64,000 bases of DNA from the NCBI RefSeq assembly GCF_029027585.1, contig NZ_CP093397.1, positions 620,001 through 684,000 on the forward strand. The letters are read 5' to 3'. The translations under genes and the position numbers were made by a program. Positions 2,811 through 20,012 of the stretch are shown here, one piece after another (position 1 is the stretch's first letter; every line of letters starts with the position of its first letter). The notes below the pieces were generated by a model that saw nothing but the letters and a program-made list of their open reading frames with translations, was not told the DNA's origin and did no database searches. Source of the DNA: Sulfurimonas sp. GTDB lineage: Bacteria > Campylobacterota > Campylobacteria > Campylobacterales > Sulfurimonadaceae.

Positions 2811-2830
2811 AAAAAAACTAAAGTTTAGTT
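2811..2830 (-). terminator. Possible weak intrinsic terminator after prpF
   Basis: On the minus strand the prpF stop codon is embedded in AACTAA-ACT-TTAGTT, a 6-bp AT-only stem with a 3-nt loop, followed by a run of T. The U-tract is good but the stem contains only one G-C pair, so termination efficiency is doubtful. It is at the right place for the end of the prp operon. Confidence 0.3.
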
Positions 2831-4006
2831 CATGGTATCGGCAGGAACATGAACATTTCCTTCCATGATAATCCTAGCACTTCTACTCATGCTTACTTTT
2901 TGTATATCATATGCATTATCTACTTTATTGATAACCGCACCAACTTTTAAAGTCCCAGAAGGGTGTCCAAAAGTTACACTATCTCTCTCACCATTACCAG
3001 CAGCGATGCTGACTAAAGTTCCAGGAACACAAGCAGCAACACCAATAGCCACAGATGCTGTTCCCATCATAGCGTGGTGAAGTAATCCCATAGACAAAGC
3101 CCGTACATTTAACTCTATCATACTAGCATCTATCTTTTTACCACTAGATGCTACATAGTTTTGAGGCTTTGAAACAAAAGCAATTTTTGGAGTATGTTGT
3201 CTAGTTTCGGCCTCTTTTATATCTGTAATAAGTCCCATTTTTATAGCACCATAGGCTCTAATAGTTTCAAATCTTTTAAGTGCTTCTTTATCAAAGTTTA
3301 TATCTCCTTGAAGTTCAGTACCTTTGTAGCCAATATCCTCAGCATTTAAAAAGATGGTAGGAATCCCTGCACTAATCATAGTAGCTTTAAATGTTCCGAT
3401 GCCAGGAACTTCAAGGTCATCTATGAGGTTTCCGGTAGGAAATAGTTTTTCTGTTGAATCAACTGGTTGTAAAAACTCTATCTTAACCTCAGCAGCTGGA
3501 AAAGAAACACCATCAAGTTCAAAATCACCCATCTCTTGGACTACAGAATTTTTCATAGGAACATAGGCGATAATAGTTTTTTTAATATTTACTTGCCAGA
3601 TGCGAATAACAGCTATACCATTTTCAACAAGTCTATCTTCATCTACAAGTCCACTTTTAATAGCAAAAGAGCCAACTGCACCTGAAAGGTTTCCACAGTT
3701 TCCACTCCAATCAACAAAAGGTCTATCAATTGCAACTTGACCAAAAGTATAATCTACATCGTGGTCTTGCTTTGTACTTTTTGCAACCAGAACAGTTTTA
3801 GAAGTACTTGAAGTCGCACCACCCATTCCATCTATTTGTTTGGCATAAGGATCAGGAGAACCAACAACCCTTAAAAGAAGTTTGTCTTTTGCTTCTTGGT
3901 TTTCTTGTGCTAGTTTTGGCAAGTCAGAAACTTTAAAAAATGTTCCCTTACTTGTACCACCACGCATATATGTGGCAGGTATTTTTATTTGTGGTGCATC
4001 ACTCAT
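2825..4006 (-). CDS. prpF: 2-methylaconitate cis-trans isomerase PrpF
   Basis: Cytoplasmic isomerase of the methylcitrate cycle. With AcnD it replaces PrpD: AcnD yields a 2-methylaconitate isomer that PrpF converts to the form that can be hydrated to 2-methylisocitrate. The 393-residue protein has the family N-terminus with MRGGTSKGTFF near residue 14, a Gly-rich DGMGGATSSTSK near 60, and the CGNLSGAVG and HHAMMGTASVAIGVAA segments expected of PrpF (diaminopimelate epimerase-like fold). It is the last gene of the operon, 9 bases after acnD. Length and order agree with the AcnD/PrpF type of cluster. Confidence 0.95.
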   Translation of the reverse strand: MSDAPQIKIPATYMRGGTSKGTFFKVSDLPKLAQENQEAKDKLLLRVVGSPDPYAKQIDGMGGATSSTSKTVLVAKSTKQDHDVDYTFGQVAIDRPFVDWSGNCGNLSGAVGSFAIKSGLVDEDRLVENGIAVIRIWQVNIKKTIIAYVPMKNSVVQEMGDFELDGVSFPAAEVKIEFLQPVDSTEKLFPTGNLIDDLEVPGIGTFKATMISAGIPTIFLNAEDIGYKGTELQGDINFDKEALKRFETIRAYGAIKMGLITDIKEAETRQHTPKIAFVSKPQNYVASSGKKIDASMIELNVRALSMGLLHHAMMGTASVAIGVAACVPGTLVSIAAGNGERDSVTFGHPSGTLKVGAVINKVDNAYDIQKVSMSRSARIIMEGNVHVPADTMN

Positions 4007-4015
4007 CTTTTTTCC

Positions 4016-6604
4016 TTATTTGTTTTTAACAAAATCTTTAGCAAATTTTTGAAGGATTCCGCCTGCGTTATATACTTCAACTTCAGCACTAGTATCTAGT
4101 CTACAAGTCACAGGAATATTTACTACTTCTCCATTTGCTCTTGTCATAATCACTTCTAATGTTGTTCGTGGACTTATATCACCTTGAACTTCATAAGTTT
4201 CAGTTCCATCTATATTATAAGTATGTCTAGTATCTCCATCTTTAAACTGCAGAGGTAACACACCCATACCAACAAGATTTGTTCTATGGATTCTCTCGAT
4301 ACTCTCAGCTACAAGAACTTCAACACCTGCAAGTCTTACACCTTTAGCAGCCCAATCTCTTGAACTTCCTTGACCGTAATTAATCCCTGCTATGATAATA
4401 AGAGGTTGTTTTCTGTCCATGTAAGTTTCTATCGCTTCCCACATTCTAGTTACTAAACCTTCAGGCATTATCTTAGCCAGTGAGCCTTGTATAACTTCAC
4501 CATTTTCATCTTTTACCATCTCATTAAAGAGTTTAGGGTTTGCTAATGTTGCTCTTTGTGCTGTATTATGATCCCCTCTATGAGTTGCATAAGAGTTAAA
4601 GTCTATTGCAGGAAGTCCCATTTTTGCACAGTATTCACCCGCTGCACTATTTGGTAAGATAGCATTTGAAGGAGATAAGTGGTCGGTTGTAATATTATCA
4701 GGAAAAACTCCTAAAGGACGCATATTTTTAAGCGCTGGTTTACCCATAAATTCTTCATCCCAATAAGGAGGTTTGTTTATATATGTACTTTTTTTATTCC
4801 AGTTATAAAAAGGATCTACTTTTACATCTTCCATTACATCTTTAGCAAACATTGGGTCATAAATCTCACTAAACATTTCTGGTCTTACAGATGCTTTTAC
4901 AACTTCATCAATCTCTTCATCACTTGGCCAAATATCATTTAGCGAAATATCGTTACCATTAGCATCTTTACCTAGTGAGTCTTTTTCTATATCAAATCTA
5001 ATAGACCCAGCAAGGGCGTAAGCGATAACTAGCGGAGGAGATGCTAAAAATGCTTCTTTCACATATGGGTGAATTCTTCCATCAAAGTTTCTATTTCCAG
5101 ATAAAACAGCTGTTGTATAAATATCATTATCAACTGCTTCTTTTTGGATTTTAGGATCAAGTGCACCTGACATTCCATTACAAGTTGTACATGCAAAACC
5201 AACTATACCAAAACCTAACTGCTCAAGTTCTCCTAAAAGATTTGAGTCTTTTAAGTAGGATTCAACCACTTTAGAACCCGGAGCTAAAGATGATTTAACC
5301 CATGGTTTTCTTGTAAGTCCTAGTTTGTTAGCATTTCTGGCTAATAGCCCCGCTGCAATAACATTTCTAGGATTGCTTGTGTTTGTACAAGATGTGATAG
5401 CCGCGATTAGTACCGCACCATCAGGCATCTCATCTTCAGTTATTTCAATTTTTTTTGTAATTCCTTCAGCTTCTAGAGTTGAAGTTGGTACAAGTTTATG
5501 TGGTTTTGAAGGTCCAGCTAAACTTCTTGAAACAGTTGATAAATCAAATTCTAATCTTCTTACATACTCGGCATTTACCAATGAGTCTGCCCAAAGTCCA
5601 TTTGCTTTAGCGTAGATTTCAACTAACTCAACTTGCTTAGCTTCTCGACCTGTAAGTTTTAAATAATCAAGAGTTTGATTATCAATAGCAAACATTGCCG
5701 CACTCGCTCCATACTCTGGTGTCATATTTGAGATAGTAGCACGATCACCTAAAGTTAAATAGCTTAAACCCTCTCCATAAAACTCTAAAAAAGAAGAGAT
5801 AACATCATTTTCTCTTAAGAAACAAGTCATAGCTAAAGCAATATCAGTTGCTGTAATACCCTCTGCTCTTTTTCCTACGATATTTACACCAACGATTTCA
5901 GGAACTCTCATAAATGATGGATTTCCAAGCATAACATTTTCAGCTTCAAGCCCACCAACACCGATTGCCATTACACCAAGTGCATCTACATGAGGAGTAT
6001 GACTATCTGTTCCAACAAGTGTATCTGGATATGCGATACCATCTATCGCGTGGATAACAGGTGACATTTTTTCTAGATTTATTTGATGCATGATTCCATT
6101 ACCTGGAGGGATAACATCTACATTATCAAATGCGATTTTTGTCCAGTTAATAAAGTGAAATCTATCTGCATTTCTTCTATCTTCAATTGCTCTATTTTTA
6201 TCAAATGCTTGGGGATCAAATCCACCACATTCAACTGCTAAAGAGTGATCAACAATAAGCTGAGTAGGAACAACAGGATTAACTAAAGTTGGATCCCCAC
6301 CCTCTTTTGCAATAGCTTCTCTAAGACCCGCTAAATCAACCAAAGCAGTAAGCCCTAAAATATCATGCGTTACAACACGACTTGGGTACCAAGGAAAATC
6401 TTTGTCAGTTCTTTTCTCAATAATTTGTATAAGTGAATCTTTTAAATCTTCACTTGGGCACTTTCTTAGTAGATTTTCAACTAGAACTCTCGAAGTGTAG
6501 TTTAGCTTCTCAAAAGAACCTGCTTGAATCTCTTCAACAGCTTCTTTGACATCATAATATTTTAAATCTGTACCATTTAATTTTTTTAGATAATTATTAC
6601 TCAT
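4016..6604 (-). CDS. acnD: Fe/S-dependent 2-methylcitrate dehydratase AcnD
   Basis: Aconitase-superfamily dehydratase of propionate catabolism, converting 2-methylcitrate to 2-methylaconitate in the cytoplasm with a [4Fe-4S] cluster. The 862-residue protein has the three cluster cysteines in the expected settings: SCTNTSNPRN, and FACTTCNGMSG with two. It also has the swivel-domain motif YGQGSSRDWAAKG near the C-terminus and the GTDSHTPHVDALGV substrate loop. I call AcnD rather than AcnA because it sits between prpC and prpF and its N-terminus is AcnD-like. It has short spacing to both neighbours (17 and 9 bases). An additional aconitase role cannot be excluded from sequence alone. Confidence 0.94.
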   Translation of the reverse strand: MSNNYLKKLNGTDLKYYDVKEAVEEIQAGSFEKLNYTSRVLVENLLRKCPSEDLKDSLIQIIEKRTDKDFPWYPSRVVTHDILGLTALVDLAGLREAIAKEGGDPTLVNPVVPTQLIVDHSLAVECGGFDPQAFDKNRAIEDRRNADRFHFINWTKIAFDNVDVIPPGNGIMHQINLEKMSPVIHAIDGIAYPDTLVGTDSHTPHVDALGVMAIGVGGLEAENVMLGNPSFMRVPEIVGVNIVGKRAEGITATDIALAMTCFLRENDVISSFLEFYGEGLSYLTLGDRATISNMTPEYGASAAMFAIDNQTLDYLKLTGREAKQVELVEIYAKANGLWADSLVNAEYVRRLEFDLSTVSRSLAGPSKPHKLVPTSTLEAEGITKKIEITEDEMPDGAVLIAAITSCTNTSNPRNVIAAGLLARNANKLGLTRKPWVKSSLAPGSKVVESYLKDSNLLGELEQLGFGIVGFACTTCNGMSGALDPKIQKEAVDNDIYTTAVLSGNRNFDGRIHPYVKEAFLASPPLVIAYALAGSIRFDIEKDSLGKDANGNDISLNDIWPSDEEIDEVVKASVRPEMFSEIYDPMFAKDVMEDVKVDPFYNWNKKSTYINKPPYWDEEFMGKPALKNMRPLGVFPDNITTDHLSPSNAILPNSAAGEYCAKMGLPAIDFNSYATHRGDHNTAQRATLANPKLFNEMVKDENGEVIQGSLAKIMPEGLVTRMWEAIETYMDRKQPLIIIAGINYGQGSSRDWAAKGVRLAGVEVLVAESIERIHRTNLVGMGVLPLQFKDGDTRHTYNIDGTETYEVQGDISPRTTLEVIMTRANGEVVNIPVTCRLDTSAEVEVYNAGGILQKFAKDFVKNK

Positions 6605-6621: not shown

Positions 6622-7773
6622 TTATTTTCGCTCATCCAATGGAACATATTTCAAGTCCTCAAGACCTATATATTGTGCAGAAGGACGAATAATTTTTCCA
6701 TCTTCTCGTTGTTCAACAACATGTGCTCCCCATCCAGATGCACGAGCAATAACAAATATAGGAGTAAACATATCTGTTGGAATTCCCATTTGATTATATG
6801 AAACTGCTGAAAACCAGTCTAAGTTAGGGAACATTTTTTTCTCATTCCACATAACAGTTTCTATTCTCTCGGCTACCTCATACATTAGCATATCATTGTT
6901 TTCTTCTGAAAGTGTTTTTGCAACTTCTTTAATAACAACATTTCTTGGATCACTTGTTGTATATACAGGATGTCCAAACCCGATAACGATTTCTTTTCTT
7001 GCCATTCTCTCTTTTATATCTTTCTCTGCCGCATCTGCTGAAGCATATCGTTGTTGGATTCTAAAAGCTTCTTCATTCGCTCCACCATGTTTTGGTCCTC
7101 TAAGAGCACCAATAGCACCAGTTATTGCTGAATACATATCAGATGATGTTCCTGCTATAACACGCCCTGCAAAAGTAGATGCATTAAACTCATGTTCTGC
7201 ATAAAGGATAAGAGAGATATGCATAGCTTTTACCCATGATTCTTTAGGCACTTCTCCATGAAGTAGGTGTAAAAAATGAGCGGCGATAGTATCATCATCA
7301 GTTTCTAACTCAATTTTTTTGTTGTTATGGCTAAAGTGGTACCAATAAAGAAGCATTGAACCAAAAGATGCCATTAACTTATCCACTAAACCTTGGGCTT
7401 CTTCTTTGTTATGGTCTAAGGCTTCAGGTTCTATACAACCTAAAGCTGAACAACCTGTTCTCATTACATCCATAGGGTGTGTTGATTTTGGAAGTTGCTC
7501 TAAAATAACTTTTACTGCATCTGGAATATTACGAAGAGATTTTAGTTTTGTTTTATATGCTGCAAGTTCTGCAATATTTGGCAATTTTTCATGAACTATT
7601 AAGTATGCAATTTCTTCAAATTCAGCTTGTGTTGCGAATTCTAATATATCATATCCACGGTAATGTAAATCATTTCCTGTTATACCAACTGTACAGATTG
7701 CAGTATTACCTGCAGTTGTACCAGATAAGGCAACAGATTTTTTAGGTTTAAATCCTGTTGTAGTTGTACTCAT
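6622..7773 (-). CDS. prpC: 2-methylcitrate synthase
   Basis: Condenses propionyl-CoA with oxaloacetate to 2-methylcitrate, the entry step of the methylcitrate cycle. The 383-residue protein is a short-type (type II-like) citrate synthase-fold enzyme. It shows [14 protein letters not shown] with its active-site histidine, [14 protein letters not shown] with the second catalytic His, and [19 protein letters not shown] containing the conserved aspartate region. The N-terminus ([18 protein letters not shown]) is characteristic of PrpC rather than GltA. It lies between prpB and acnD in the operon. Confidence 0.95.
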
Positions 7774-7796: not shown

Positions 7797-8669
7797 TTAT
7801 TTATTCTGTGAAAAAAGTGCGTCTAGTTTATCTTCATAAGCATGATAATCTAACATATCGTAAAGTTCTATCCTAGTTTGCATAATATCAACTACTGAAC
7901 TTTGAGTACCTTTGTTTAAGATAGCTTCAAAAACACTAAGAGCTGCTTTATTCATAGCACGAAATCCTGAAAGTGGGTAAAGAACCATGCTTATACCAAC
8001 ACTTGCCAACTCTTCAACTGTAAACATTGGAGTTGCACCAAATTCTGTAATATTTGCTAAAACTGGAACTTTAATAACATTTGTAAAATCTTCATACTCT
8101 TTAAGTGTATGGATTGCTTCAGCAAAAATCATATCTGCACCAGCTTCTACATAAGCTTTAGCTCTTTTTAGTGCTTCTTCTTGACCTTCACTAGCATGTG
8201 CATCTGTTCTAGCCATGATTACAAAATCAGGGTCAGTTTTTCCATCTACTGCCGCTCTAATACGATCACACATCTCATCAATGCTAACTAACTCTTTATT
8301 TGGTCTATGTCCACATCTTTTTTGAGCAACTTGGTCTTCTATATGACATCCTGCTGCACCTGCTTTTGTCATCTCTCTTACTGTTCTAGAAATGTTAAAA
8401 GCTCCACCCCAACCAGTATCTGCATCTACTAAAAGTGGCACATCACATCTACCTGTAATTCTTCTAATATCAATACATACATCTTCTAGCATTGTCATAC
8501 CAAGATCTGGTAAACCATAACTAGCATTTGCAACACCAGCACCTGAAAGATACATAGCTTTTGCTCCTGCACGCTCTGCTTGAATAGCACTATATGCATT
8601 TATAACACCTAATATTTGTAATGGACTTTGATCTTTTAACGCTTCTCTAAATTTTTTTCCTGCACTCAT
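7797..8669 (-). CDS. prpB: 2-methylisocitrate lyase
   Basis: Cleaves 2-methylisocitrate to pyruvate and succinate, the last step of the methylcitrate cycle. The 290-residue TIM-barrel protein carries the catalytic-loop motif KRCGH near residues 118-122, the metal-binding VDADTGWGG near 62-70, and a family-typical N-terminus with [21 protein letters not shown]. The start overlaps the stop of prpE by four bases (ATGA), indicating translational coupling. Isocitrate lyase would be much longer, so the assignment is firm. Confidence 0.96.
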
Positions 8670-10573
8670 GCTTCTTCCTTCTTTTTTGGGTATCCAAGAG
8701 CTTTTATAGCTTCTTGTATCTCTGGTAATACATCTTCATCTTCAATAGTTGAAGGCATATTCCACTCTTTTCCATCTGCCATACTTCGCATAGTTCCACG
8801 AAGAATTTTTCCACTTCTTGTTTTTGGTAGTCTTGAAACAATAGTTACAATTCTAAAACTAGCAACTGCTCCAATTTCATCACGAACAAGTTGAACAATT
8901 CCTTCGCATAAAGATTGATTATCTCTTTCTATACCTTCTTTTAAAACTGCAAAGCCCATAGGAACTTCACCTTTTAAGGCATCATCAACACCGATTACAG
9001 CACACTCTGCTACATCAGGATGTTTTGCTACTATCTCTTCCATTTCACCAGTTGAGAGTCTATGTCCAGCAACATTGATAACTCCGTCCATACGACCCAT
9101 AACCCAAACATATCCATCTTTATCGATATATCCAGAATCTCCAGTTAAATAATATCCTGGATAAAAGTCTAAGTATGAGCGTTTATATCTTGCGTCATCT
9201 TCCCAAACTCCCATAAGACAACTTGGTGGTAGTGGTAATTTAAGTACAAGATTTCCTAATACTCCTGGTTTGCATTGCTTACCATCAGCATCTAATGCTT
9301 GAAGATTAAATCCTGGCATTGGTTTTGTAGGACTTCCAGGTTTTACTTTCATAGGGTCTAAGCCCATTGGATTTGCAGCGATTGCCCAACCTGTTTCAGT
9401 TTGCCACCAGTGATCAGTCACTTCTTTACCTGTTACTTTTTTCATCCACTCTAAAGTTGGAGAATCACATCTTTCACCAGCTACAAAAAGACCTTTTACA
9501 CTGCTAAGGTCATATTTTTTAACCCATTCACCGTTTGGATCTTCTTTTCTAATTGCTCTAAAAGCAGTTGGTGCTGAAAAAAGTATATTTACTTTATGTT
9601 CTTCACAGACTCTCCAAAATGCTCCTGGATTTGGTGTTCTAACAGGTTTACCTTCATAAACAATAGTTGTACAACCATTCATTAATGGAGCGTAAACTAT
9701 ATATGAATGTCCAACAACCCAACCAACATCACTAGCTGCCCAAAAAACATCACCTGCTTTAGCATTGTAAACATTATCCATAGACCATTTCATAGCAACA
9801 GCATGTCCACCATTACTTCTAATAACACCTTTTGGTTTACCAGTAGTTCCTGATGTATAAAGAATATAAAGTGGGTCAATAGCATCTAATGGAACACAAT
9901 CAACTGCAGCAGTTTTTTCTTCTTCCTCAGCCCAATCCACATCTCTCCAAGGAAGCATATTCGCTATTTCTTGAGGTCTTTGATGGATAATACAACATGT
10001 TGGTTTGTGAGTTGATCTTTTGATTGCTTCATCTAAAAGAGGTTTATAGTGAATCACACGACTTACCTCAATACCACAACTAGCACTCATAATAACTTTA
10101 GGTTTTGCATCATCGATTCTAGTTGCAAGTTCATGTGCAGCAAAACCACCAAAAACAACAGAGTGAATAGCACCGATTCTAGCACATGCAAGCATCGCTA
10201 TAACAGCTTCTGGAATCATTGGCATATAGATAACAACTCTATCGCCTTTAACAACACCTTTATTTACAAGAATACCAGCAGTTTTTGCTACTCTATCACG
10301 AAGTTGTGCATATGTATAAGTTTTCTTAGTGTCCGTTACTGGAGAATCATATATAAGTGCTGCTTGGTCACCTCTTCCATTGTCAACATGTAAATCAAGT
10401 GCATTGTAACAAGTATTCATACAGCCACCAACAAACCATCTGTAATGTCCGTTTACTACATCTAGTACTTTATCCCACTGATGATACCAATGAACTTTTG
10501 TTGCTGCCTCTGCCCAAAACTTCTCAGGATCGCTCAGTGATTCTTTGTACATTTTGTCGTAAATTGCTCCCAT
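8666..10573 (-). CDS. prpE: Propionate-CoA ligase (propionyl-CoA synthetase)
   Basis: AMP-forming acyl-CoA synthetase that activates propionate to propionyl-CoA via propionyl-adenylate. The 635-residue protein has the adenylate-forming core motif [15 protein letters not shown], then [10 protein letters not shown], the hinge region [21 protein letters not shown], and the C-terminal catalytic-lysine motif [11 protein letters not shown]. The PrpE-like N-terminus ([20 protein letters not shown]) and first position in a prpEBCD-like operon argue for propionate over acetate as main substrate. A strong Shine-Dalgarno site (AAAAGGAGA) is present. Transcription probably starts at the -10 near 10600 next to the operator array. 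Confidence 0.94.
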
Positions 10574-10598
10574 AACTATCTCCTTTTAATTTAGAAAA

Positions 10599-10604
10599 AT
10601 TATA
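10599..10604 (-). promoter_or_regulatory. Putative -10 element of the prp operon
   Basis: A perfect TATAAT on the minus strand, 26 bases upstream of the prpE start codon. No good -35 hexamer is seen at 17 bp, which is usual for Campylobacterota housekeeping promoters. The first TTGTACAA palindrome lies 21 bp upstream of this -10, so a bound regulator would contact or overlap RNA polymerase. Confidence 0.45.
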
Positions 10605-10625
10605 CCTCTTATATATGATTTATGT

Positions 10626-10693
10626 TTGTACAAGATTTATGGACAAAATACAATTTTTGTACAATTTGCAATATTTGTACAAAAATTGTACAA
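10626..10693. promoter_or_regulatory. Operator array: four TTGTACAA palindromes
   Basis: Four perfect copies of the 8-bp palindrome TTGTACAA start at 10626, 10657, 10675 and 10686, all inside the 126-bp gap between prpE and the divergent regulator. Centre spacings are 31, 18 and 11 bp. The last two abut the regulator start at 10700 and the first lies near the -35 area of the prp promoter. This is the layout of a site cluster for a locally encoded regulator controlling both directions. That the regulator at 10700-11668 binds it is inference. Confidence 0.65.
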
Positions 10694-10699
10694 TATACT

Positions 10700-11668
10700 A
10701 TGAAAACAGTAGAAAAAATCATACAAATTTATAATCGCTCTCAACTTAGCATCTCAAAATTTGCTTCAATTATTAAAAAAGATAGAAGAACTGTAACCTC
10801 TTGGATAGATAAAATCTCACAAAAAGAGCCAAGTTCAGAAGTTTTAGACAACATATCTTCATTTTTCAGATATCCAGATAATATTTGGGAAGAAGAAACA
10901 CAAGAAGGTGATTTTTTAGATATGATTTCTAAGATTCCAAAAGAAGAATTAAAGATTATTGATGAGGGTTATTTGGGTGGATTGAAATATATCTTAGCAA
11001 GTGAAGATAAAGAAAGATTTGTCATTCACCCACAATTTCCTGGTCCAATGTATAGAGATACGACTATTACAAAAGTTTACAGAACGCAAAACAGTTTAGA
11101 AGTAGAAAACTTTAAAAAAGAGAGAATCACTAAAATGCTCGCTTATTCTTTTGAAACAACGGAGTGGTACTCCATAGAATCTCTTTTGAACTTTTGTTTT
11201 TCACAAATAGGTAATTTTTATACAAGAGAACAAAAAATACACATTTTAGACCTGATGCATGATAGTTTCAATGACAACTATAACAAGCACCTATACCTTT
11301 TTGATTCTTTTTCTAGAAAGATATATGGTTTTAATAGTATGTATATCTCTATTAATATTAAAAAGCAAGTGATGTTTTTCAAATCTCCACTTAACTCTGT
11401 TTTTATAGAAGTTAGCAATAAAAAACTAATAGAGAGAATTCACAAACATTTTACTTTTGGAAGCGAAGCACCGACTCATGTTAATCCAAACGATGTAACT
11501 AATATACTACGAATATTAAGAGATGCTATAAAGTCAAATCTATCACTTAGTCAAGCTTACGAAGAAATAAATAGACAAACTTTTTATGGTGGTCTTTTTA
11601 AAAATAATATGAGTTTATCTATGCAAGAAAAACTCTCTGACCCAAGAGAGGGACAAAGAGTAAGTTAA
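10700..11668 (+). CDS. Putative helix-turn-helix regulator of the prp operon
   Basis: A 322-residue protein. I start it at the ATG at 10700 because residues from there on form the fold and the in-frame upstream sequence consists of the TTGTACAA operator repeats. The N-terminal 50 or so residues read as a helix-turn-helix, with QLSISKFASIIKKDRRTVTSWIDKI matching the tetrahelical DNA-binding pattern. The rest (about 60-322) is a mixed alpha/beta domain with no motif I recognise. No sigma-54 domain is present, so it is not a PrpR-type activator. Divergent placement beside prpE and the operator array suggests an effector-responsive local regulator, perhaps sensing a cycle intermediate. It has no clear Shine-Dalgarno site. 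Confidence 0.65.
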   Translation: MKTVEKIIQIYNRSQLSISKFASIIKKDRRTVTSWIDKISQKEPSSEVLDNISSFFRYPDNIWEEETQEGDFLDMISKIPKEELKIIDEGYLGGLKYILASEDKERFVIHPQFPGPMYRDTTITKVYRTQNSLEVENFKKERITKMLAYSFETTEWYSIESLLNFCFSQIGNFYTREQKIHILDLMHDSFNDNYNKHLYLFDSFSRKIYGFNSMYISINIKKQVMFFKSPLNSVFIEVSNKKLIERIHKHFTFGSEAPTHVNPNDVTNILRILRDAIKSNLSLSQAYEEINRQTFYGGLFKNNMSLSMQEKLSDPREGQRVS

Positions 11669-11671
11669 GTT

Positions 11672-14600
11672 TTACATGCCTGTTGTTATAATCTCTTCAT
11701 CAATAGTAAGTTCTACACTGTATCCATCTGAATGAGAGTAACTATAAGTTGTATTATCTCCATTATCAACCATTGATGTTTGCGTCCAATCACCACTTTC
11801 ATTTAGGTTACTTGCATCAAAACTATCAGTATCATTACCTGTAATAATTAAACTATTTGAAGGTTCTGTCATGTCAAGAATATCTTCAAGTGAAAGATGG
11901 ATAATCTCTGCATTGCCATTCATTTGAATCTCTTCAATATTTTCAATTCTTTCTAAGTTATCATCTGAAAAATCAAGTTTAATCCCATCTTCTAAGATGA
12001 CGGTATCAAAATTATTTACTGTTTGAACTTCATTTAGATGCATTGGCGTACTAGTTTCTACATCTATTACAACATCAACAACATCTGATTCTAAACCTGA
12101 TTCATCCGTTACTTTATACTGATACTGAGCATCTGCCACTTCATTTACATCAATACTTGCTAAGAAATAGTCACTAGAATCTCCAACGCCATTTTGATTT
12201 ACATAAGGGTTTGCACTAAATTGTAACTGGTCAAAAGCTAAACCTTCTATATTAAAATAACCAGCTTGAGAAGTTCCGCTATTTCCAGAGCCAATATTTT
12301 GTGTACTTAAAACAAAATCAGGAGTAAAATTATTATCTCCTGCATTATTTGAAAATGTAAAAGAGCCAACTTTATTCCCATCAAGGTAAGCATCTACAAC
12401 ACCAACTTCTGATTCACTACCGTTATTATATAAATGTGTAATTCCTATTTTTGCACTTGTCACAGTAGATGCAAAATCAACTATCATTGTTTCTGTATTT
12501 TCACTTCTTGCATCATAACCTATCTGATTATTTGTTCCACCTGCTACACCTTGTACACCAACTCCATCTCTTGAATTATAGGTAACTACTGATTCTTCTC
12601 CATCTAATCCAATTGCTTTTAGACTAACACTTGACCAGCTATCAGTTACACTTTGTACGCTTCCAAAATCATCTGCCCCACCAAGAGATATAACATCTCC
12701 ATCTGTTGGAACCTGTTCATGTGTTGCAACCCAATATACATTATCTCCATTACCAAAAGTCATGGTTTGCATATTGGCATCTGTGATTTTTGTAAATGAA
12801 CCATTTGCTTCTAAGTAAAGGTCACCATAAGAATTCTCAGATGCTAGTTGAGTTATCTCATAACTTAAAGAACTCTCTAAACTTTGAGCATCTCCGCCAC
12901 CTAAATCAGCAGGGTCTGCTAAATCATTTTCAGCTCCACTACCATCTAAACCTCCACCAACATCAAACTTTTTGAAAAATGCTATATCATTTATATCTGG
13001 CGTATTAGTATCATTTGAAAAATCTCTTAAAGCTGTATCATCAGAGTTTAGATTTGAAGTTGTTGTGACCTCATCAGCAGTTGGAGGAGTTTGAACATCT
13101 AAGATAGTACCTGTTCCTACTGCTGTTTCACCGCCACTTAATGTCGCACTTAATGTAAAACTTTCACTATTTTCAATAAGACTATCGGTAACACTATCAA
13201 TCTTAACCATTACACCTTTAGTATCTGCGTTAACTGCTATCTCTCCATTTGCTGGTACATCATTCCAAGTTTGTCCATCAAAACTATATTTGTATGTTGA
13301 TTCATTATAATCAGCATCTATAGCAGATCCATCAGCCAAAGCAAGAGTAAGTATGCTTGAAGCCTCAACTCCACTAAGTCTAACACCAAAGATTAAATCT
13401 TCACCTTCATTTACAGTTACATTACTGCTATGAATATCTGAACTACATAAAGTTCCAACAAAAACAGTTGGTTCACCCATAGGTTTTACATCTAAATGAA
13501 CAGTTGCATTATCTGTTGCACCTAACTCATCAGTAATCGTATAATCAAATGTTGCTTTACCGTTGTAGTCTTCATCTGGAGTAAAGGTAACACTTAATCC
13601 ATCTGCACTTAAAACTACACTTCCATGAACTGCATTTTGTACTGAAGTTAAACTAAAAGAATGACCTTCTATGTCGGAATCATTTACAAGTAATGTCGCT
13701 ACATCGATAGTTATAGAACTATCTTCATTCATATCAAAATCACTCTGAATAAACTCTTTTCCATTTGCCGTAAATCTATGAGCAGAGATGCCATCTCCAT
13801 TTTGCCATGAGATAACATAACCACCATCTTCTAAAGTTGTAATACTTGGCTCAGACTGTCCGCTTACACTATCACTTATAAGTACAGCATCTGGCATTGT
13901 AGTTGTATTTTCATCAAATGTTTTAGAGTAAATTGCTCCATTATCTTCATAAACTACTATTACTGCATTTTGCAAAGCTGTGATAACAGGATTTATCCCA
14001 TTATCTGAGATAATAGTTTCATTTCCTACTTTACTTCCATCCGTATCTAAAATCTGAGCAACTATTCCTTGACCTTCTGACTCCCAAGTAATAACTGCTT
14101 TTCCATTATCTAAGGCTGTTACTTCTGGATCTGTTTGATTACCATTAGTTGTATGATTTACAGCTATTTCTTGCCCAACTAAAACTAAACCATCATTAGT
14201 AAGTTCTAGTCTTTGCGCATAAACACCATAACCATCTCCATCTGTACCTTCTGATTGCCAAGTCATGATTGCTGAAGTGTCTGAAAGCATCACTATGTCT
14301 GAATCTATTTGGTCATTTAATATTGTTTGATTTACAACAATACTATCTCCAACTTTATTACCTAGTGCATCAAAACGCTGTGCAACTACTGCAAAACCAC
14401 TTCCATCATGAGTATCACTAAAAATCGGATTATCAATACGACCATGGTCTGTATTATCTAGTCTTGCATCTGCTGAGTATGTAACTATAAACCCACCATC
14501 TGGTAAACCTATAATTGGGTCATACTCTGCTCGTGCTACTGTAAACTCTTCACAAATAGGGCTACCATTTACATCGTAGATTTGACCTTGTATATATCTT

Positions 14601-17600
14601 GAGCCATTGTCCCAATTATCTACATTTATATTATGGTCATCAGAAGTCCAAGTCACTAAATAACTTCCATTTTCAAGTCCAACTACATTTACATCATGCT
14701 GACTTCTACCACCCTCTTCATTTGTGTTTTCTACAAAAGTATTTACTCTAGTAGCGTCTCCTACTTTTTCTCCATCTGCATCATATCTTTGGATAAATAC
14801 ATCATGATTTACAGTTCCTCTTGTCCAAACTGTTTCACCACTGTCTTTAACATCACCATCATTGTTTAAGTCATTTGACTCAGCACCGTTATAAGTTGTT
14901 CCACTTACTTCGGTCCATGCTACAACGAAACCACCATCACTAAGTGCTGTAATATCTGGTTCTGATTGATCAGCATCTCCAAAAGAAGTCACTTCAAACT
15001 CACCTTGTTCTGAATTTTGAAAACCATAATTATCAACTGCAGTAGTTGTATTTAAATACTCTCCTGTATTTAAACTACATCCACCAATATCAAGAGATAC
15101 ATTCATCGTATTACTATGTTTATCTCCATCAAATACTACTATTTCAAACTCTCTTACTTCTCTATCTTCACTTGTAGTTCCAAAAGTAAGTGATTCTAGT
15201 GCCAACTCATAGTCTGATACACTAGCACTTCCACTAAGAGTTACAACTCCGCCAACTACCGTTGCAGTTATGCCACTTGGAAGATTGTCTGCATCTATCA
15301 CATCTCCAACTTTAAAGTTAGTAAGGGTCAATACAGCACTTTCTAAGTTAGCATCATCAACATCACTAAGAGATACATCTGTTAAGATTGTGTTTGCTGT
15401 ACTATAATCAGTTCCTACTAGCTCAATATTATCTATATATGCACCAAGAGAATCTTCATTCCCTGCTGCTTGAAAATTTAATTCTGCACTTGAAGTTTCA
15501 ATCCCACTAAAAGTAGCACTTATCTTAAACCATGATGAGCCATCAACTGGCGTAATCTTAACTTCAACACCACTTGGTGCTTCATAAGTTATGTTTCCCT
15601 GAGCATCTACATTTATAGCTACTTCTTTGCCGTCTAATGAAAACTTCATATCACTTGTATCAGCTTGTCCTGGTCTAGGCATAAAATTAAATGATAAAGT
15701 AAAAGTATCGTTGCCTTGTCCTAAATTAACATCTGTTGTAATTGAACTATTTGAATTTTGTGAATGTGTATCAAGTTCAACATAAGTGCCTGAACCATCT
15801 GCTGTATCTAAACCATGAATTCCATCATCTGTACGCATTTCTAATCCTGCGTCATTCATTCTCCACTCATGTCCACTATTACTAACTAAAACATTATCTC
15901 CATCTGTTCCATGCTCAACATACCAAGCTCTACCATTTGTATCACCAGCACCTTGATTTACCCCTTCAAAACCTTCACTAAATAGTGTAGTTTGAGTAGG
16001 ACTATGAAGTGTTGCACAAGGTTTAATAGTAAAAACAACATCATCATAATCTTGGTCAGTTCCACCTTGTGGTAAATCTTCCATACCGATAGTTAAACCA
16101 CCATCAGGATTTTTAGTAATAATCGCATGGTCGCGTCCATCTGTACTCATGTCATTATCTGTATAGTAAGCTTTGTTTAAACTAGCAGTATCTGTTGAAT
16201 CATTAGGATTTGTAAAAATAACTTGAAAGGTTGTTGGGTCTATAGAAACTTCAAATCCATTATCTATTGCATTTTTTATACTTGCATTTGAATATCCATT
16301 TGGAATGATAAAAAAACCAACTTCTCCACTTAGGTTATTTAAAGTACCAAGACTAAGAGAATCATTTCCTAAGAAAGCATCAAAATTACCACCTTGACCA
16401 TCATCATCTCCTTTATCAACATAAATAACTTTAACATCTACTATATTTCCATCTGCATCTTTTTCATAAAAACCTAAAATATTTTTATATCCAGCAGTTC
16501 CACCATGATAATCAACTGCTAAAGAAGAATCACCAGTTCCCATATCGATAGTTATGTTTCCATTACTCTCATTAAACAGAAGTCCTTTATCTCTTGATAC
16601 TAAATCCTCAGGAGAGATAACATCTGCTATGCCATCATCATTAATGTCTAAAAGTCCATCAACAATATGTAAGGGCTGATTGTTTGCACTAATAGAATTT
16701 ATAACAGGAGCATCATCCATCCCATCTATTTTAATCTCTATGTTAGCACTTATGTCAGGATTTTGTGCGTCACTAATCGTATAAACAAAACCATCTGTTA
16801 CATTATCCCCAATATTTAAAGCATCTACTGCTGAGTCACTGTCATCTACTACAAAGGTAAATACTCCATTGTTATTGATAGTTAATGTTCCATATTCACC
16901 ATCTATACTAATATCAGTTCCATCTGTTGGAATATCTACAACAACCCCACCAAAACTAATCTGCGTAATAGTTGTAGCATTATTGCTTGTGTCATTTGCT
17001 AGAACATTTCCAGATGCCTCTCTTGTATCATTGGCTTCATCTTCAGCATTAATAAATTCATGTCCAGTTTCTGCGGCACTAGCACTATCATTACTAGCTT
17101 GTATAGCCACATCATCATCAGTTATTGTAGTTATTACTTTGTCATTTCCAACAGTTAAGGAGTCATAGCCACCACCTGTTGCACTTATAATTGTAACACT
17201 ATAATCTTCATCACTCTCAGCTAAAAGGCTATCAAAATTATCTATCGTGAAAGTTCCACTTGTTGTATTGGCATCTATCTTAACAATAACCACTTCACTT
17301 ACAATATCATTACTATTTGTATCAATATGAGAAATTCTTACACTTACAAAAAGGTCAGTTAATGGAGCATCTGTAACATTTAAAGTATATGTAGCACTAT
17401 TACCTTCAGCAACTAAAGTTGTGCCCTCTATGCTTATCTCAGTATTTAAAGGTGGTTTTTGTTCATTACCATCTGGATTTTTCTCATTTGCATCAGCACC
17501 AAAAGAAGCATCACGAAGTCCTGAAGCTGCACGAGTTGAGTTGGCATCTCTATACTCAAAAACACTCTCTCCACCTTCATTTTGTTTGGCTTGTTCTTCT

Positions 17601-17962
17601 CCAGCAGCAGTTTCATCTAAAATACCTAAATCTTCTTCTTTTGTATCAGACTCTTCATCTTTTGCATAAAGTTCATCATCTAACTCTTTTAAACTTTTGT
17701 CTGCTAAACCACCTTCCATGCTAGGCTCATCTGTCATAGATTTATCAAATAGTTGTTCTTGAGCACCACTTAAAACAACATTTCCTGCACCATTATTCAT
17801 AGCTATTTCTATACTTGCACTTGAAGGATTACTTTTATCTCCATATACTATGGCATTTTCATCTATTGTATCGCCCTCTTTTAATTCTGTAATATTTCCT
17901 TGTGCATCTTTTGTAAAAAACTTACTTTGTGAACCGTTTATCATTAATATTTTTGCTGACAT
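11672..17962 (-). CDS. Giant type I-secreted adhesin, LapA-like N-terminus (2096 aa)
   Basis: A very large acidic surface or secreted protein, presumably exported by the adjacent type I system. Residues 1-75 resemble the retention module of LapA-type adhesins. The dialanine motif TAAG, the LapG protease target in LapA, is at residues 118-121. Beyond it come a Calx-beta-like domain (about 165-275), a VCBS-like domain (280-420), a DUF4114-like segment with QGGTDQDYDDVVF, a lectin/LamG-like stretch, about six diverged repeats of the type DGGFVVAWTE, a cadherin-like domain (NDSDIEGHSFSLTS onwards), a second Calx-beta-like domain, and a C-terminal segment ending in LSLEDILDM and LTIDEEI. No classical GGxGxDxxx RTX nonapeptides are obvious. 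A strong AGGAGA ribosome site precedes the ATG. No LapG or LapD gene is in the window. Confidence 0.85.
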   Translation of the reverse strand: MSAKILMINGSQSKFFTKDAQGNITELKEGDTIDENAIVYGDKSNPSSASIEIAMNNGAGNVVLSGAQEQLFDKSMTDEPSMEGGLADKSLKELDDELYAKDEESDTKEEDLGILDETAAGEEQAKQNEGGESVFEYRDANSTRAASGLRDASFGADANEKNPDGNEQKPPLNTEISIEGTTLVAEGNSATYTLNVTDAPLTDLFVSVRISHIDTNSNDIVSEVVIVKIDANTTSGTFTIDNFDSLLAESDEDYSVTIISATGGGYDSLTVGNDKVITTITDDDVAIQASNDSASAAETGHEFINAEDEANDTREASGNVLANDTSNNATTITQISFGGVVVDIPTDGTDISIDGEYGTLTINNNGVFTFVVDDSDSAVDALNIGDNVTDGFVYTISDAQNPDISANIEIKIDGMDDAPVINSISANNQPLHIVDGLLDINDDGIADVISPEDLVSRDKGLLFNESNGNITIDMGTGDSSLAVDYHGGTAGYKNILGFYEKDADGNIVDVKVIYVDKGDDDGQGGNFDAFLGNDSLSLGTLNNLSGEVGFFIIPNGYSNASIKNAIDNGFEVSIDPTTFQVIFTNPNDSTDTASLNKAYYTDNDMSTDGRDHAIITKNPDGGLTIGMEDLPQGGTDQDYDDVVFTIKPCATLHSPTQTTLFSEGFEGVNQGAGDTNGRAWYVEHGTDGDNVLVSNSGHEWRMNDAGLEMRTDDGIHGLDTADGSGTYVELDTHSQNSNSSITTDVNLGQGNDTFTLSFNFMPRPGQADTSDMKFSLDGKEVAINVDAQGNITYEAPSGVEVKITPVDGSSWFKISATFSGIETSSAELNFQAAGNEDSLGAYIDNIELVGTDYSTANTILTDVSLSDVDDANLESAVLTLTNFKVGDVIDADNLPSGITATVVGGVVTLSGSASVSDYELALESLTFGTTSEDREVREFEIVVFDGDKHSNTMNVSLDIGGCSLNTGEYLNTTTAVDNYGFQNSEQGEFEVTSFGDADQSEPDITALSDGGFVVAWTEVSGTTYNGAESNDLNNDGDVKDSGETVWTRGTVNHDVFIQRYDADGEKVGDATRVNTFVENTNEEGGRSQHDVNVVGLENGSYLVTWTSDDHNINVDNWDNGSRYIQGQIYDVNGSPICEEFTVARAEYDPIIGLPDGGFIVTYSADARLDNTDHGRIDNPIFSDTHDGSGFAVVAQRFDALGNKVGDSIVVNQTILNDQIDSDIVMLSDTSAIMTWQSEGTDGDGYGVYAQRLELTNDGLVLVGQEIAVNHTTNGNQTDPEVTALDNGKAVITWESEGQGIVAQILDTDGSKVGNETIISDNGINPVITALQNAVIVVYEDNGAIYSKTFDENTTTMPDAVLISDSVSGQSEPSITTLEDGGYVISWQNGDGISAHRFTANGKEFIQSDFDMNEDSSITIDVATLLVNDSDIEGHSFSLTSVQNAVHGSVVLSADGLSVTFTPDEDYNGKATFDYTITDELGATDNATVHLDVKPMGEPTVFVGTLCSSDIHSSNVTVNEGEDLIFGVRLSGVEASSILTLALADGSAIDADYNESTYKYSFDGQTWNDVPANGEIAVNADTKGVMVKIDSVTDSLIENSESFTLSATLSGGETAVGTGTILDVQTPPTADEVTTTSNLNSDDTALRDFSNDTNTPDINDIAFFKKFDVGGGLDGSGAENDLADPADLGGGDAQSLESSLSYEITQLASENSYGDLYLEANGSFTKITDANMQTMTFGNGDNVYWVATHEQVPTDGDVISLGGADDFGSVQSVTDSWSSVSLKAIGLDGEESVVTYNSRDGVGVQGVAGGTNNQIGYDARSENTETMIVDFASTVTSAKIGITHLYNNGSESEVGVVDAYLDGNKVGSFTFSNNAGDNNFTPDFVLSTQNIGSGNSGTSQAGYFNIEGLAFDQLQFSANPYVNQNGVGDSSDYFLASIDVNEVADAQYQYKVTDESGLESDVVDVVIDVETSTPMHLNEVQTVNNFDTVILEDGIKLDFSDDNLERIENIEEIQMNGNAEIIHLSLEDILDMTEPSNSLIITGNDTDSFDASNLNESGDWTQTSMVDNGDNTTYSYSHSDGYSVELTIDEEIITTGM

Positions 17963-18029
17963 AATAATTCTCCTAACTATAGATTATTACTTACTATAAC
18001 AAGTATATTACAAAAATATATATATTGAT

Positions 18030-18047
18030 ATTGTCCCTATGGACAAT
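18030..18047. promoter_or_regulatory. Dyad ATTGTCC-CTAT-GGACAAT upstream of the adhesin
   Basis: A perfect 7+7 bp inverted repeat with a 4-bp spacer, located 68-85 bases upstream of the adhesin start and 23 bases beyond the end of the LuxR-type regulator gene. Candidate -10 elements (TATACT at 18002-18007 or TATAGT at 17993-17998, minus strand) would put its centre about 44-53 bases upstream of transcription start. That is the position of a class II-like activator site. No U-tract follows, so it is unlikely to be a terminator. Confidence 0.5.
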
Positions 18048-18069
18048 AAAGAAAGCTTAGAGGTGTAGT

Positions 18070-18657
18070 TTATTTTAGAAGTAGAGCTAAAGCTAGTCTA
18101 TCTTTTACATAAAGTTTTTTATAGATGCTTTGAGCATGTGCTTTAACTGTTCTTGGAGTGATTTCTAATTTTTGAGCAACATTTTTGTATGTATCACCAT
18201 CTTTAAGAAGCAATGCTACTTCTTTTTCTCTCTCACTTAGTTTTACAAGTATAAAAGAAACATCTCTTGATTCTTGAACTGGTATTTGATTTATAAGTAG
18301 AGATGTAAACTCTGGATGCAACCAAATCATACCTTCTTTCATCGTTTGGATTGCAGAAAGTATAAAATGTTCTTGCATAAGTGCATTTCCATAAGCCTTT
18401 GCACCAAGAGCTAGAACCTCTCTTGCAACTTTAATATCTGGTACACGATGTAAAACTAAAACAAGATTATCATTTTTACTCAATTGTATAATCATCTCTT
18501 TTCCCTTAGAATTAAAAGCTGAATAGTTAACAATTACAATATTCCCAAAAGAGTTTTGCAACTCTGATAATTCATCAAAAACTACATAGTCTTTTTTTAT
18601 AGCTTTTTCCCAATACTCAAGTAAATTTATATCATCACTATAAAGTATAATATCCAT
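18070..18657 (-). CDS. LuxR-family transcription regulator with degenerate receiver
   Basis: A 195-residue regulator: N-terminal receiver-like domain (1-120) and C-terminal LuxR-type helix-turn-helix (about 133-195: LSEREKEVALLLKDGDTYKN, then ITPRTVKAHAQSIYKKL). The acidic pair D8/D9 is present, but the phospho-acceptor position after the third strand is Asn44 (IVIVNYSAF) instead of Asp, so normal phosphorylation is unlikely. This organisation recalls biofilm regulators such as CsgD or VpsT, whose receivers are also atypical, but I see no c-di-GMP motif to prove it. It lies between the secretion genes and the adhesin, next to a dyad, and probably controls the adhesin. Confidence 0.85.
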   Translation of the reverse strand: MDIILYSDDINLLEYWEKAIKKDYVVFDELSELQNSFGNIVIVNYSAFNSKGKEMIIQLSKNDNLVLVLHRVPDIKVAREVLALGAKAYGNALMQEHFILSAIQTMKEGMIWLHPEFTSLLINQIPVQESRDVSFILVKLSEREKEVALLLKDGDTYKNVAQKLEITPRTVKAHAQSIYKKLYVKDRLALALLLK

Positions 18658-18659
18658 GC

Positions 18660-20012
18660 TTATCTCTCCGTAAATGTGTATTGTTTTGTTTTTAAAATAG
18701 GTTTGAGTATATAATCAAGCACACTTTTTTGTCCTGTTATAATATCAACACTTACTGTCATTCCAGGGATTATTTTAAGCTGCTTAGATACATCACCAAT
18801 AAAATTTTTATCTGTTTTAATCCTAACTGTATAAAAAACATTATCTTTTTGGTCTGTTACAGTATCCGCACTAATTAAAACAACCTCTCCATCTAAACCA
18901 CCATAAATAGAAAAATCATAAGCAGAAAATTTAACTATTGCTTTTTGTCCAAAATATATAAAAGCTATATCTGAAGGTTTAATTTTCACCTCAACTAACA
19001 AGGCATCATCACTTGGAACTATTTCGATTATATCTGCCCCTGGTTTGATAACACCACCAATAGTATGAACAAATAATTCTTGAACTATTCCTTTCATAGG
19101 TGAGCGAACTATGGTACGACTTACTTGGTCTTTGAGCGCAGTCGAGTTCGCTCTTAAACCTCTTAACTCAGCAACTGCTTCATTTAGTTTTACTTTTGCT
19201 TCACTTTTATAAACTAACTTTGTTTCATTAATCCTACTTTTAACTTCTTTTATAGCTGATTTTAACCTTGGAATAGATTTTTTTGTTGCACTATATCTAG
19301 CTTCTATCTCATTAGCTTCTCTTTGTAGTTTTAAAAAATCTCTTTTTGAACTAACCCCTCGAGCAACCATAGGACTTGTCATTCTTACTTCTTTTGTAAC
19401 TAACTCTGTTGATGATTTAAGATGTTTTTCTTGAGTTTTTGCTTCTGAGAGTTCTTGTCTTTTTTGAACAAGTTGTTCTCTTAATGCATTTAGTTTTGAG
19501 TTTAGTTGTCTTTTGTTAATGTTGTATAAACTCTCTTCATTATTTACAAAAATAGGTATTCTTTCTTTTAACTCTTTATCTACTTTAAATTTTTCTCCAC
19601 TTGATTCTGCTGTTAATCTATGAATCCTAGCTTCAATAGCATCTGCTTTAATCGCGTTTGAGCTAAATGATGAACGAGATTTTTCATTGTTAATTTTTAA
19701 AAGGATTTGTCCTTTTTTTACATTTTGTCCTTTTCTCACTAAGATATCTTCAACTATTCCACCTTCAAGATTTTGAATCATTTGATTCTCTCCACTTGGA
19801 ATAATCTCACCATCTCCCCTAGCAATTTCATCAATAAGAGCAAAATTTGCCCAGGCTAAAAATATAGCAATAGCCACAATCCAAAAATATAATACAACTC
19901 TAAGAGTAGCAGGGGTAACTTGAATAACAGCAGCACTTAAAGAGTGCATAAACTCATAATCCTGAGCGGATAAGTTTTTTTCAACTTCATTTTTCTTAAA
20001 CATTTTTTCCAC
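18660..20012 (-). CDS. Type I secretion membrane fusion protein (HlyD/LapC family)
   Basis: Periplasmic adaptor linking the inner-membrane exporter to TolC. The 450-residue protein has a short cytoplasmic N-terminus, one membrane segment (about 43-62, FWIVAIAIFLAWANFALI), a split lipoyl motif (GGIVEDILVRKGQNVKKGQILLK), a long coiled-coil hairpin (about 120-290) and the second lipoyl half with the typical RSPMKGIVQELFVHTIGGVI. The C-terminal HlyD beta domain follows. It overlaps the ABC transporter gene by 17 bases. Family length and order match lapBC-type systems. Confidence 0.94.
   Translation of the reverse strand: MEKMFKKNEVEKNLSAQDYEFMHSLSAAVIQVTPATLRVVLYFWIVAIAIFLAWANFALIDEIARGDGEIIPSGENQMIQNLEGGIVEDILVRKGQNVKKGQILLKINNEKSRSSFSSNAIKADAIEARIHRLTAESSGEKFKVDKELKERIPIFVNNEESLYNINKRQLNSKLNALREQLVQKRQELSEAKTQEKHLKSSTELVTKEVRMTSPMVARGVSSKRDFLKLQREANEIEARYSATKKSIPRLKSAIKEVKSRINETKLVYKSEAKVKLNEAVAELRGLRANSTALKDQVSRTIVRSPMKGIVQELFVHTIGGVIKPGADIIEIVPSDDALLVEVKIKPSDIAFIYFGQKAIVKFSAYDFSIYGGLDGEVVLISADTVTDQKDNVFYTVRIKTDKNFIGDVSKQLKIIPGMTVSVDIITGQKSVLDYILKPILKTKQYTFTER

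Follow-up and report, generated by a model that had tools for sequence, protein, structure and literature searches.

The palindrome TTGTACAA occurs as an array of four copies between a methylcitrate (prp) operon and a divergent regulator gene in the 64,000-nucleotide stretch of Sulfurimonas DNA analyzed here (the window). The array and the gene pair that flanks it are very probably the propionate switch of these Campylobacterota, run by a protein family that is absent from the databases searched. In the model we favor, which the sequence comparisons make likely, the 322-aa product of the divergent gene would bind three operator elements (A, B and C), activate prp locally, repress its own gene and be set by a ligand. 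The four palindromes would be the strong halves of these three 19-bp elements, bound by the product of 10700-11668, and the target would be the divergent prpE-prpB-prpC-acnD-prpF operon. At the level of sequence, comparison between loci establishes the pairing of the regulator with prp, the tandem N3 layout of the operator, its placement with respect to the two predicted promoters, and its absence where the regulator is missing; on this evidence the conserved operator array is real and the regulator family undescribed. Circuits in which a divergent regulator acts at operators within a shared promoter region are well known. The regulator's architecture and its phylum-wide pairing with prp are new. 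Propionate is a common fermentation acid of guts and sediments, and these results offer a candidate regulator, its candidate operator and a model that can be tested in a phylum with gut and animal-associated species. Passages found in the open literature name methylcitrate genes for Arcobacter butzleri, Helicobacter bizzozeronii and Sulfurospirillum, and these passages give no regulator for them.

Copies of TTGTACAA are located at window positions 10626-10633, 10657-10664, 10675-10682 and 10686-10693, with start-to-start distances of 31, 18 and 11 bp. The sequence-only reading had placed four identical palindromes here, with these spacings, between prpE and a divergent helix-turn-helix gene, and both the sequence and the coordinates agree; the array is flanked by the start codon of prpE (10573, minus strand) and by the 322-aa ORF that begins at 10700 on the plus strand. 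An upstream ATG at 10622 (348-aa ORF) was rejected as the start of the regulator, because similarity to homologues starts at residue 3 of the 322-aa protein and the extra residues correspond to the operator region. Single copies of TTGTACAA number six in the window against 2.6 expected from the window's own shuffles, and the 89 copies in the 2.607-Mb, AT-rich genome are at about chance level. The array at 10626-10693 is the sole cluster of more than two copies in the genome, the rest of which holds just three isolated pairs less than 500 bp apart. Four-site clusters are expected about 1e-7 times per genome (Poisson, genome mean rate), or 1e-3 times if the same estimate is made with a tenfold local rate. 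The exact tandem TTGTACAA-N3-TTGTACAA occurs only once in the genome, at 10675-10693. Recurrence of the sites throughout the genome, an objection the earlier reading had raised against itself, is thus not seen for the array. A wider regulon search for the tandem with up to three mismatches returned 60 matches, compared to 47 in the reversed control, with no clear further targets; the two best other near-matches lie within coding sequence. An abutting pair of TTGTACAA (TTGTACAATTGTACAA) was observed at G000:C1:336607-336622 (L174), in a region that lacks long ORFs and may be near ribosomal RNA genes.

Table 1. Genes, predicted promoters and proposed operator elements of the prp-regulator region (window positions).
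Feature	Position	Strand	Basis or description
prpF, 2-methylaconitate isomerase; last gene of operon	2825..4006	-	NCBIfam TIGR02334, 669.5 bits, above cut-off
acnD, Fe/S-dependent 2-methylisocitrate dehydratase	4016..6604	-	NCBIfam TIGR02333, 1549.7 bits, above cut-off
prpC, 2-methylcitrate synthase	6622..7773	-	NCBIfam NF009006, 681.5 bits, above cut-off
prpB, methylisocitrate lyase	7797..8669	-	NCBIfam TIGR02317/NF008455, above cut-off
prpE-like propionate/acetate--CoA ligase; first gene of operon	8666..10573	-	NCBIfam
Predicted prp -10	10599..10604	-	Sequence; TATAAT on minus strand, ATTATA in register in relatives
Operator element A	10626..10644	.	Perfect TTGTACAA (10626-10633) + N3 + degenerate half TTATGGAC
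Operator element B	10646..10664	.	Degenerate half AAATACAA + N3 + perfect TTGTACAA (10657-10664)
Predicted regulator promoter	10666..10694	+	-35 TTGCAA (10666-10671), 17 bp, -10 TACAAT (10689-10694)
Operator element C	10675..10693	.	TTGTACAA-AAA-TTGTACAA; overlaps regulator promoter
Regulator gene, 322 aa	10700..11668	+	HTH about 1-70, phospholipase-D-like domain about 79-270, helical tail

The operon in the window encodes the AcnD/PrpF form of the methylcitrate pathway (Table 1). The best NCBIfam matches of the prpE-like ligase, NF007815 and TIGR02316 (propionate--CoA ligase), both fall below cut-off, and the protein exceeds the cut-off of NF001208 (acetate--CoA ligase subfamily). Because the propionate--CoA ligase model scores below cut-off, the substrate of the ligase was taken from its context. 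On the other side of the regulator gene, 11672-17962 and 18070-22158 (both minus strand) hold a 2096-aa cadherin-like repeat protein adjoining a LuxR-type regulator gene, beside which lie a probable HlyD-like membrane-fusion protein and a gene for an ABC transporter; the gene group at 11672-22158 is probably a type I secreted adhesin cluster.

The conserved unit of the array is a 19-bp tandem, TTGNNCAA-N3-TTGNNCAA (11-bp phase), and not the lone 8-mer. Three such elements are present in the window, and only in element C are both halves perfect. The uneven spacings of 31 and 18 bp arise because A and B each carry one degenerate half. The four sites that had been proposed are real and form the most strongly conserved portion of the array, but they are not four independent 8-mers; they belong to tandems of two 8-bp palindromes. 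A dimer of N-terminal HTH domains, or a dimer of dimers, could occupy the two palindromes of an element, which are one helical turn apart.

The promoter search found no consensus -35 for the prp promoter on the minus strand. Element A overlies the -35 region of this promoter, with its palindrome starting 27 bp from the predicted -10. If the prp start is taken about 7 bp past the -10 (near 10592), element A extends from about -34 to -52, which is the place of a -35 or of a class II activator. On the regulator side, element C fills the stretch from the -35 to the -10, and its right half coincides with the -10 hexamer, so that the conservation of element C has a second possible cause. The predicted -10 ends 5 bp before the ATG at 10700, and this ATG is the expected transcription start. 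The regulator mRNA may be leaderless in the window and in the closest relatives, with a leader present in others.

Conservation of the array at orthologous prp loci, on which the sequence-only reading depended, was borne out by aligned regulator-prp intergenic regions from several clades, with the exact TTGTACAA drifting in Helicobacter and Campylobacter. In an alignment of 14 close regions, ATTATA (the prp -10), GTACAA, ACAATTTTTGTACA and TTGTATTTTTTGTACAAAAATTGTACAAT are kept in register; ACAATTTTTGTACA is the conservation evidence for element B, and TTGTATTTTTTGTACAAAAATTGTACAAT joins the regulator's -35, element C and the regulator's -10. The regulator promoter of relatives retains TTGTAT/TTGTTT and TACAAT. 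Sixteen close loci contain 26 copies of TTGTACAA as compared to 0.4 in dinucleotide-preserving shuffles, and the tandem TGTACA-N5-TGTACA is present in 14 of them (0 in shuffles). When spacers of 0-12 bp were compared, N3 of TTGNNCAA-N3-TTGNNCAA had the top mean score in all five clades, with z-scores (26.9, 11.5, 9.5, 13.1 and 10.3) that overstate independence since sequences within a clade are related. N3 ranked first by z in four clades; in Arcobacter a spacer of 11 receives a higher z of 14.8, one locus (L054) being counted in two groups of this test, which should have a small effect among the 38 Arcobacter loci. The central bases drift to TTGAACAA/TTGTGCAA in Helicobacter and to TTGCACAA/TTATACAA in Campylobacter; in the more distant groups GTAC is gone and the N3 spacing stays. 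Arcobacter loci display a weak tandem, and their strong TGTACAA lies upstream of the -35 of the regulator gene; autorepression in this group would therefore require a different geometry.

The distance from the element A palindrome to the prp -10 is 27 bp in 11 of the 16 close loci and in seven of nine Helicobacter loci, and 28 bp in all six loci of a second Sulfurospirillum group. It is mixed in Arcobacter (about 26-27 bp where the site is recognizable), and the Campylobacter loci show no register to the prp -10. Campylobacter regulator-prpE intergenic regions (L080, L085, L086, L088 and L018) carry an extra GTTAC...GTAAC-like inverted repeat near the regulator start, which is perhaps a second operator or a site for another regulator. 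One 403-bp intergenic region (L022, 7598-8000) carries a long insertion that separates element C from the start of the regulator gene.

The position of element A, in place of the missing -35, suggests that prp is activated through contact with RNA polymerase, and autorepression is suggested by the way element C spans the regulator promoter from -35 to -10. Autoregulation would fit this anatomy; that the control of prp is activation is what we infer from it. Promoters of epsilonproteobacteria often lack a -35, and for this reason the absent prp -35 argues only weakly for activation. Alternatively, this protein and these operators could serve to repress prp, element A blocking the -35 region until a ligand releases it, an arrangement that we consider rather unlikely. 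Repressors also bind where element A lies, and repression of the regulator through element C is expected under both readings. An activator agrees better with two features, neither of them decisive: the constant 27-28 bp register in several families and the lack of a -35.

Orthologues of the regulator (42-91% identity) were found in eight more genomes among 118 relatives, in every case divergent from prp genes. An alignment-based scan of 84,980 species, represented by one genome each, recovered 74 loci, almost all under the labels Sulfurospirillum, Arcobacter and its kin, Helicobacter, Campylobacter or further Campylobacterota. A single-sequence scan of genome contigs found no relative, whereas the alignment-based scan did detect them, and no relatives were found in plasmids. 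A divergent prpE or prpB lies within 700 bp of the regulator at 74 of the 81 loci examined, a set that includes a few duplicates under two collections. The remaining seven comprise two loci cut by a contig end, two without prp genes nearby and three with a CoA-transferase-like gene. In the latter, which are Helicobacter-type (L075 6376-7719, L078 6385-7731 and L087 6374-7735), a butyryl-CoA:acetate CoA-transferase-like gene replaces prpE between the regulator and prpB (assignment above cut-off; two of the three loci scored). The regulator therefore stays with the acyl-CoA-forming step despite the exchange of enzyme. Across 399 genomes of the order, 70 have both the regulator and PrpB, one the regulator alone (a weak partial match), ten PrpB alone and 318 neither. 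PrpB is thus present in 70 of 71 regulator genomes, and the regulator is missing from 10 of 80 PrpB genomes (Fisher p 7e-66, which overstates independence because the genomes are related). A dedicated local regulator is expected to keep a divergent linkage to prp genes and to co-occur with them, and both are seen here.

The palindromes might instead be sites for a different, global regulator, with no connection to the gene next to them. Several families, GntR-type regulators among them, typically use short TTGT..ACAA palindromes, but the tandem tracks the 322-aa protein across families, an array unique in the genome is ill-suited to a global factor, and the array is missing from nine prp loci that lack the protein, making such a factor improbable. 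These nine loci have no TTGTACAA in the 300 bp upstream; they are phylogenetically apart, so the control is supportive and not independent. It is very improbable that the repeats lack an operator role and arise simply from the AT-richness of a promoter region with two TACAAT/TATAAT -10 boxes and T-runs: the region is AT-rich and the regulator's -10 lies within the right half of element C, but dinucleotide-preserving shuffles do not give the counts, and in-register conservation extends outside the -10 boxes to elements A and B and to the left half of C.

The earlier suggestion of an uncharacterized regulator class held up, since the 322-aa protein has no family in Pfam or NCBIfam; the best match was MarR (E 0.04, far below cut-off). 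PHROGs gave only weak HTH matches, HTH_3 matches of the family in Pfam were weak, and sequence searches of the PDB returned nothing useful and no match to MtPrpR. AlphaFold models were obtained for the full-length protein (58 family members in the alignment; pLDDT 87) and for residues 75-322 alone (52 members; pLDDT 89, pTM 0.87). Structure comparison aligns modeled residues 1-70 with SinR, DdrO, CapH and P22 c2 at Z of about 7-8 (Xre/lambda-repressor HTH), and 58 family members share an identical recognition-helix segment, KDRRT.

In the case of the effector domain, all 50 fold matches listed are PLD-superfamily or PLD-fold chains, including restriction nuclease SauUSI, NucT, TrmBL2, TrmB, FAM83, PLD3/4 and polyphosphate kinase; the best among the matches listed has Z 9.2 (149 residues, 4.3 A). 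Foldseek alone was not significant (best E 3e-3), and for this reason the phospholipase-D fold is considered probable and not proven. The HKD catalytic motif of active phospholipase D/Nuc enzymes (HxKx4D) is found in none of 58 members, and N193-x-N195-K196-x5-D202 is invariant in the family. The natural reading of the model is a non-catalytic sensor like that of TrmB. The ligand of this C-terminal domain would be an intermediate of the pathway, with propionyl-CoA or 2-methylcitrate the most likely, and its binding would set the switch. Whether the whole is a hitherto undescribed Campylobacterota family of one-component regulators that joins an Xre-type HTH to a dead phospholipase-D-like sensor of a CoA thioester or 2-methylcitrate, and controls prp through tandem palindromes, we regard as evenly balanced. 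If so, it would be a further independent coupling of propionyl-CoA level to prp, beside sigma-54 PrpR, GntR-type PrpR and ScfR, and the effector domain would put the phospholipase-D fold to a new sensory use.

PrpR of Salmonella and E. coli is a sigma-54 activator, divergent from and local to the prp operon. The regulator described here resembles it as a divergent local gene, with an activator role proposed. As the sequence-only reading had noted, it lacks the sigma-54 activator domains; PrpR_N and sigma-54 AAA+ domains had no Pfam or NCBIfam match in the 322-aa protein and none in Pfam for its relatives. In other proteobacteria, GntR-type PrpR is the local prp regulator; the GT/AC palindrome is shared, but the tandem operator differs, and the GntR winged-helix domain had no Pfam match in the regulator or its relatives. 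GT/AC half-sites are reported for GntR-type regulators, with GntR-type PrpR listed (PMC4494728).

The ScfR-type regulators MtPrpR/RamB (Mycobacterium) and PccR (Rhodobacter) are alike in being local regulators of propionyl-CoA metabolism with an N-terminal HTH, which for the present family is the Xre-type fold modeled for residues 1-70, and in having an operator of two adjacent 8-bp palindromes. The MtPrpR operator consists of TTTGCAAA and TTTGCgAA one bp apart (PMC6765138). Compared to paired TTTGCAAA, the layout is similar, but the motif here is TTGTACAA-N3-TTGTACAA with another spacing. The regulator has 322 aa versus 486 aa in the ScfR comparison, and its effector domain looks phospholipase-D-like, not GAF/IrrE-like. 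A CX2CX4C Fe-S cluster motif, reported as conserved in MtPrpR homologues (PMC6765138), is present in none of 58 family members; IrrE/DUF955 and ScfR domains had no Pfam match in nine members (E up to 1). MtPrpR was not among the fold matches listed for the model, which does not speak clearly for or against these domains. By the features compared, the regulator appears to work like ScfR regulators but is not a member of that group.

The archaeal sugar regulator TrmB and the chromatin protein TrmBL2 probably share with the regulator the order of a DNA-binding domain followed by a non-catalytic phospholipase-D-like domain, Z being 8.8 (134 residues, 5.1 A) for TrmBL2 and 7.7 (129 residues, 4.2 A) for TrmB. 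TrmB had no Pfam match and no detected similarity by sequence. It acts in another pathway, and the N-terminal domain here is lambda-repressor/Xre-like, not a TrmB-type winged helix. A distant homologue of the regulator (L172, 6294-7319; 341 aa) matches from residue 42 on; it lacks neighboring prp genes and may respond to a different signal.
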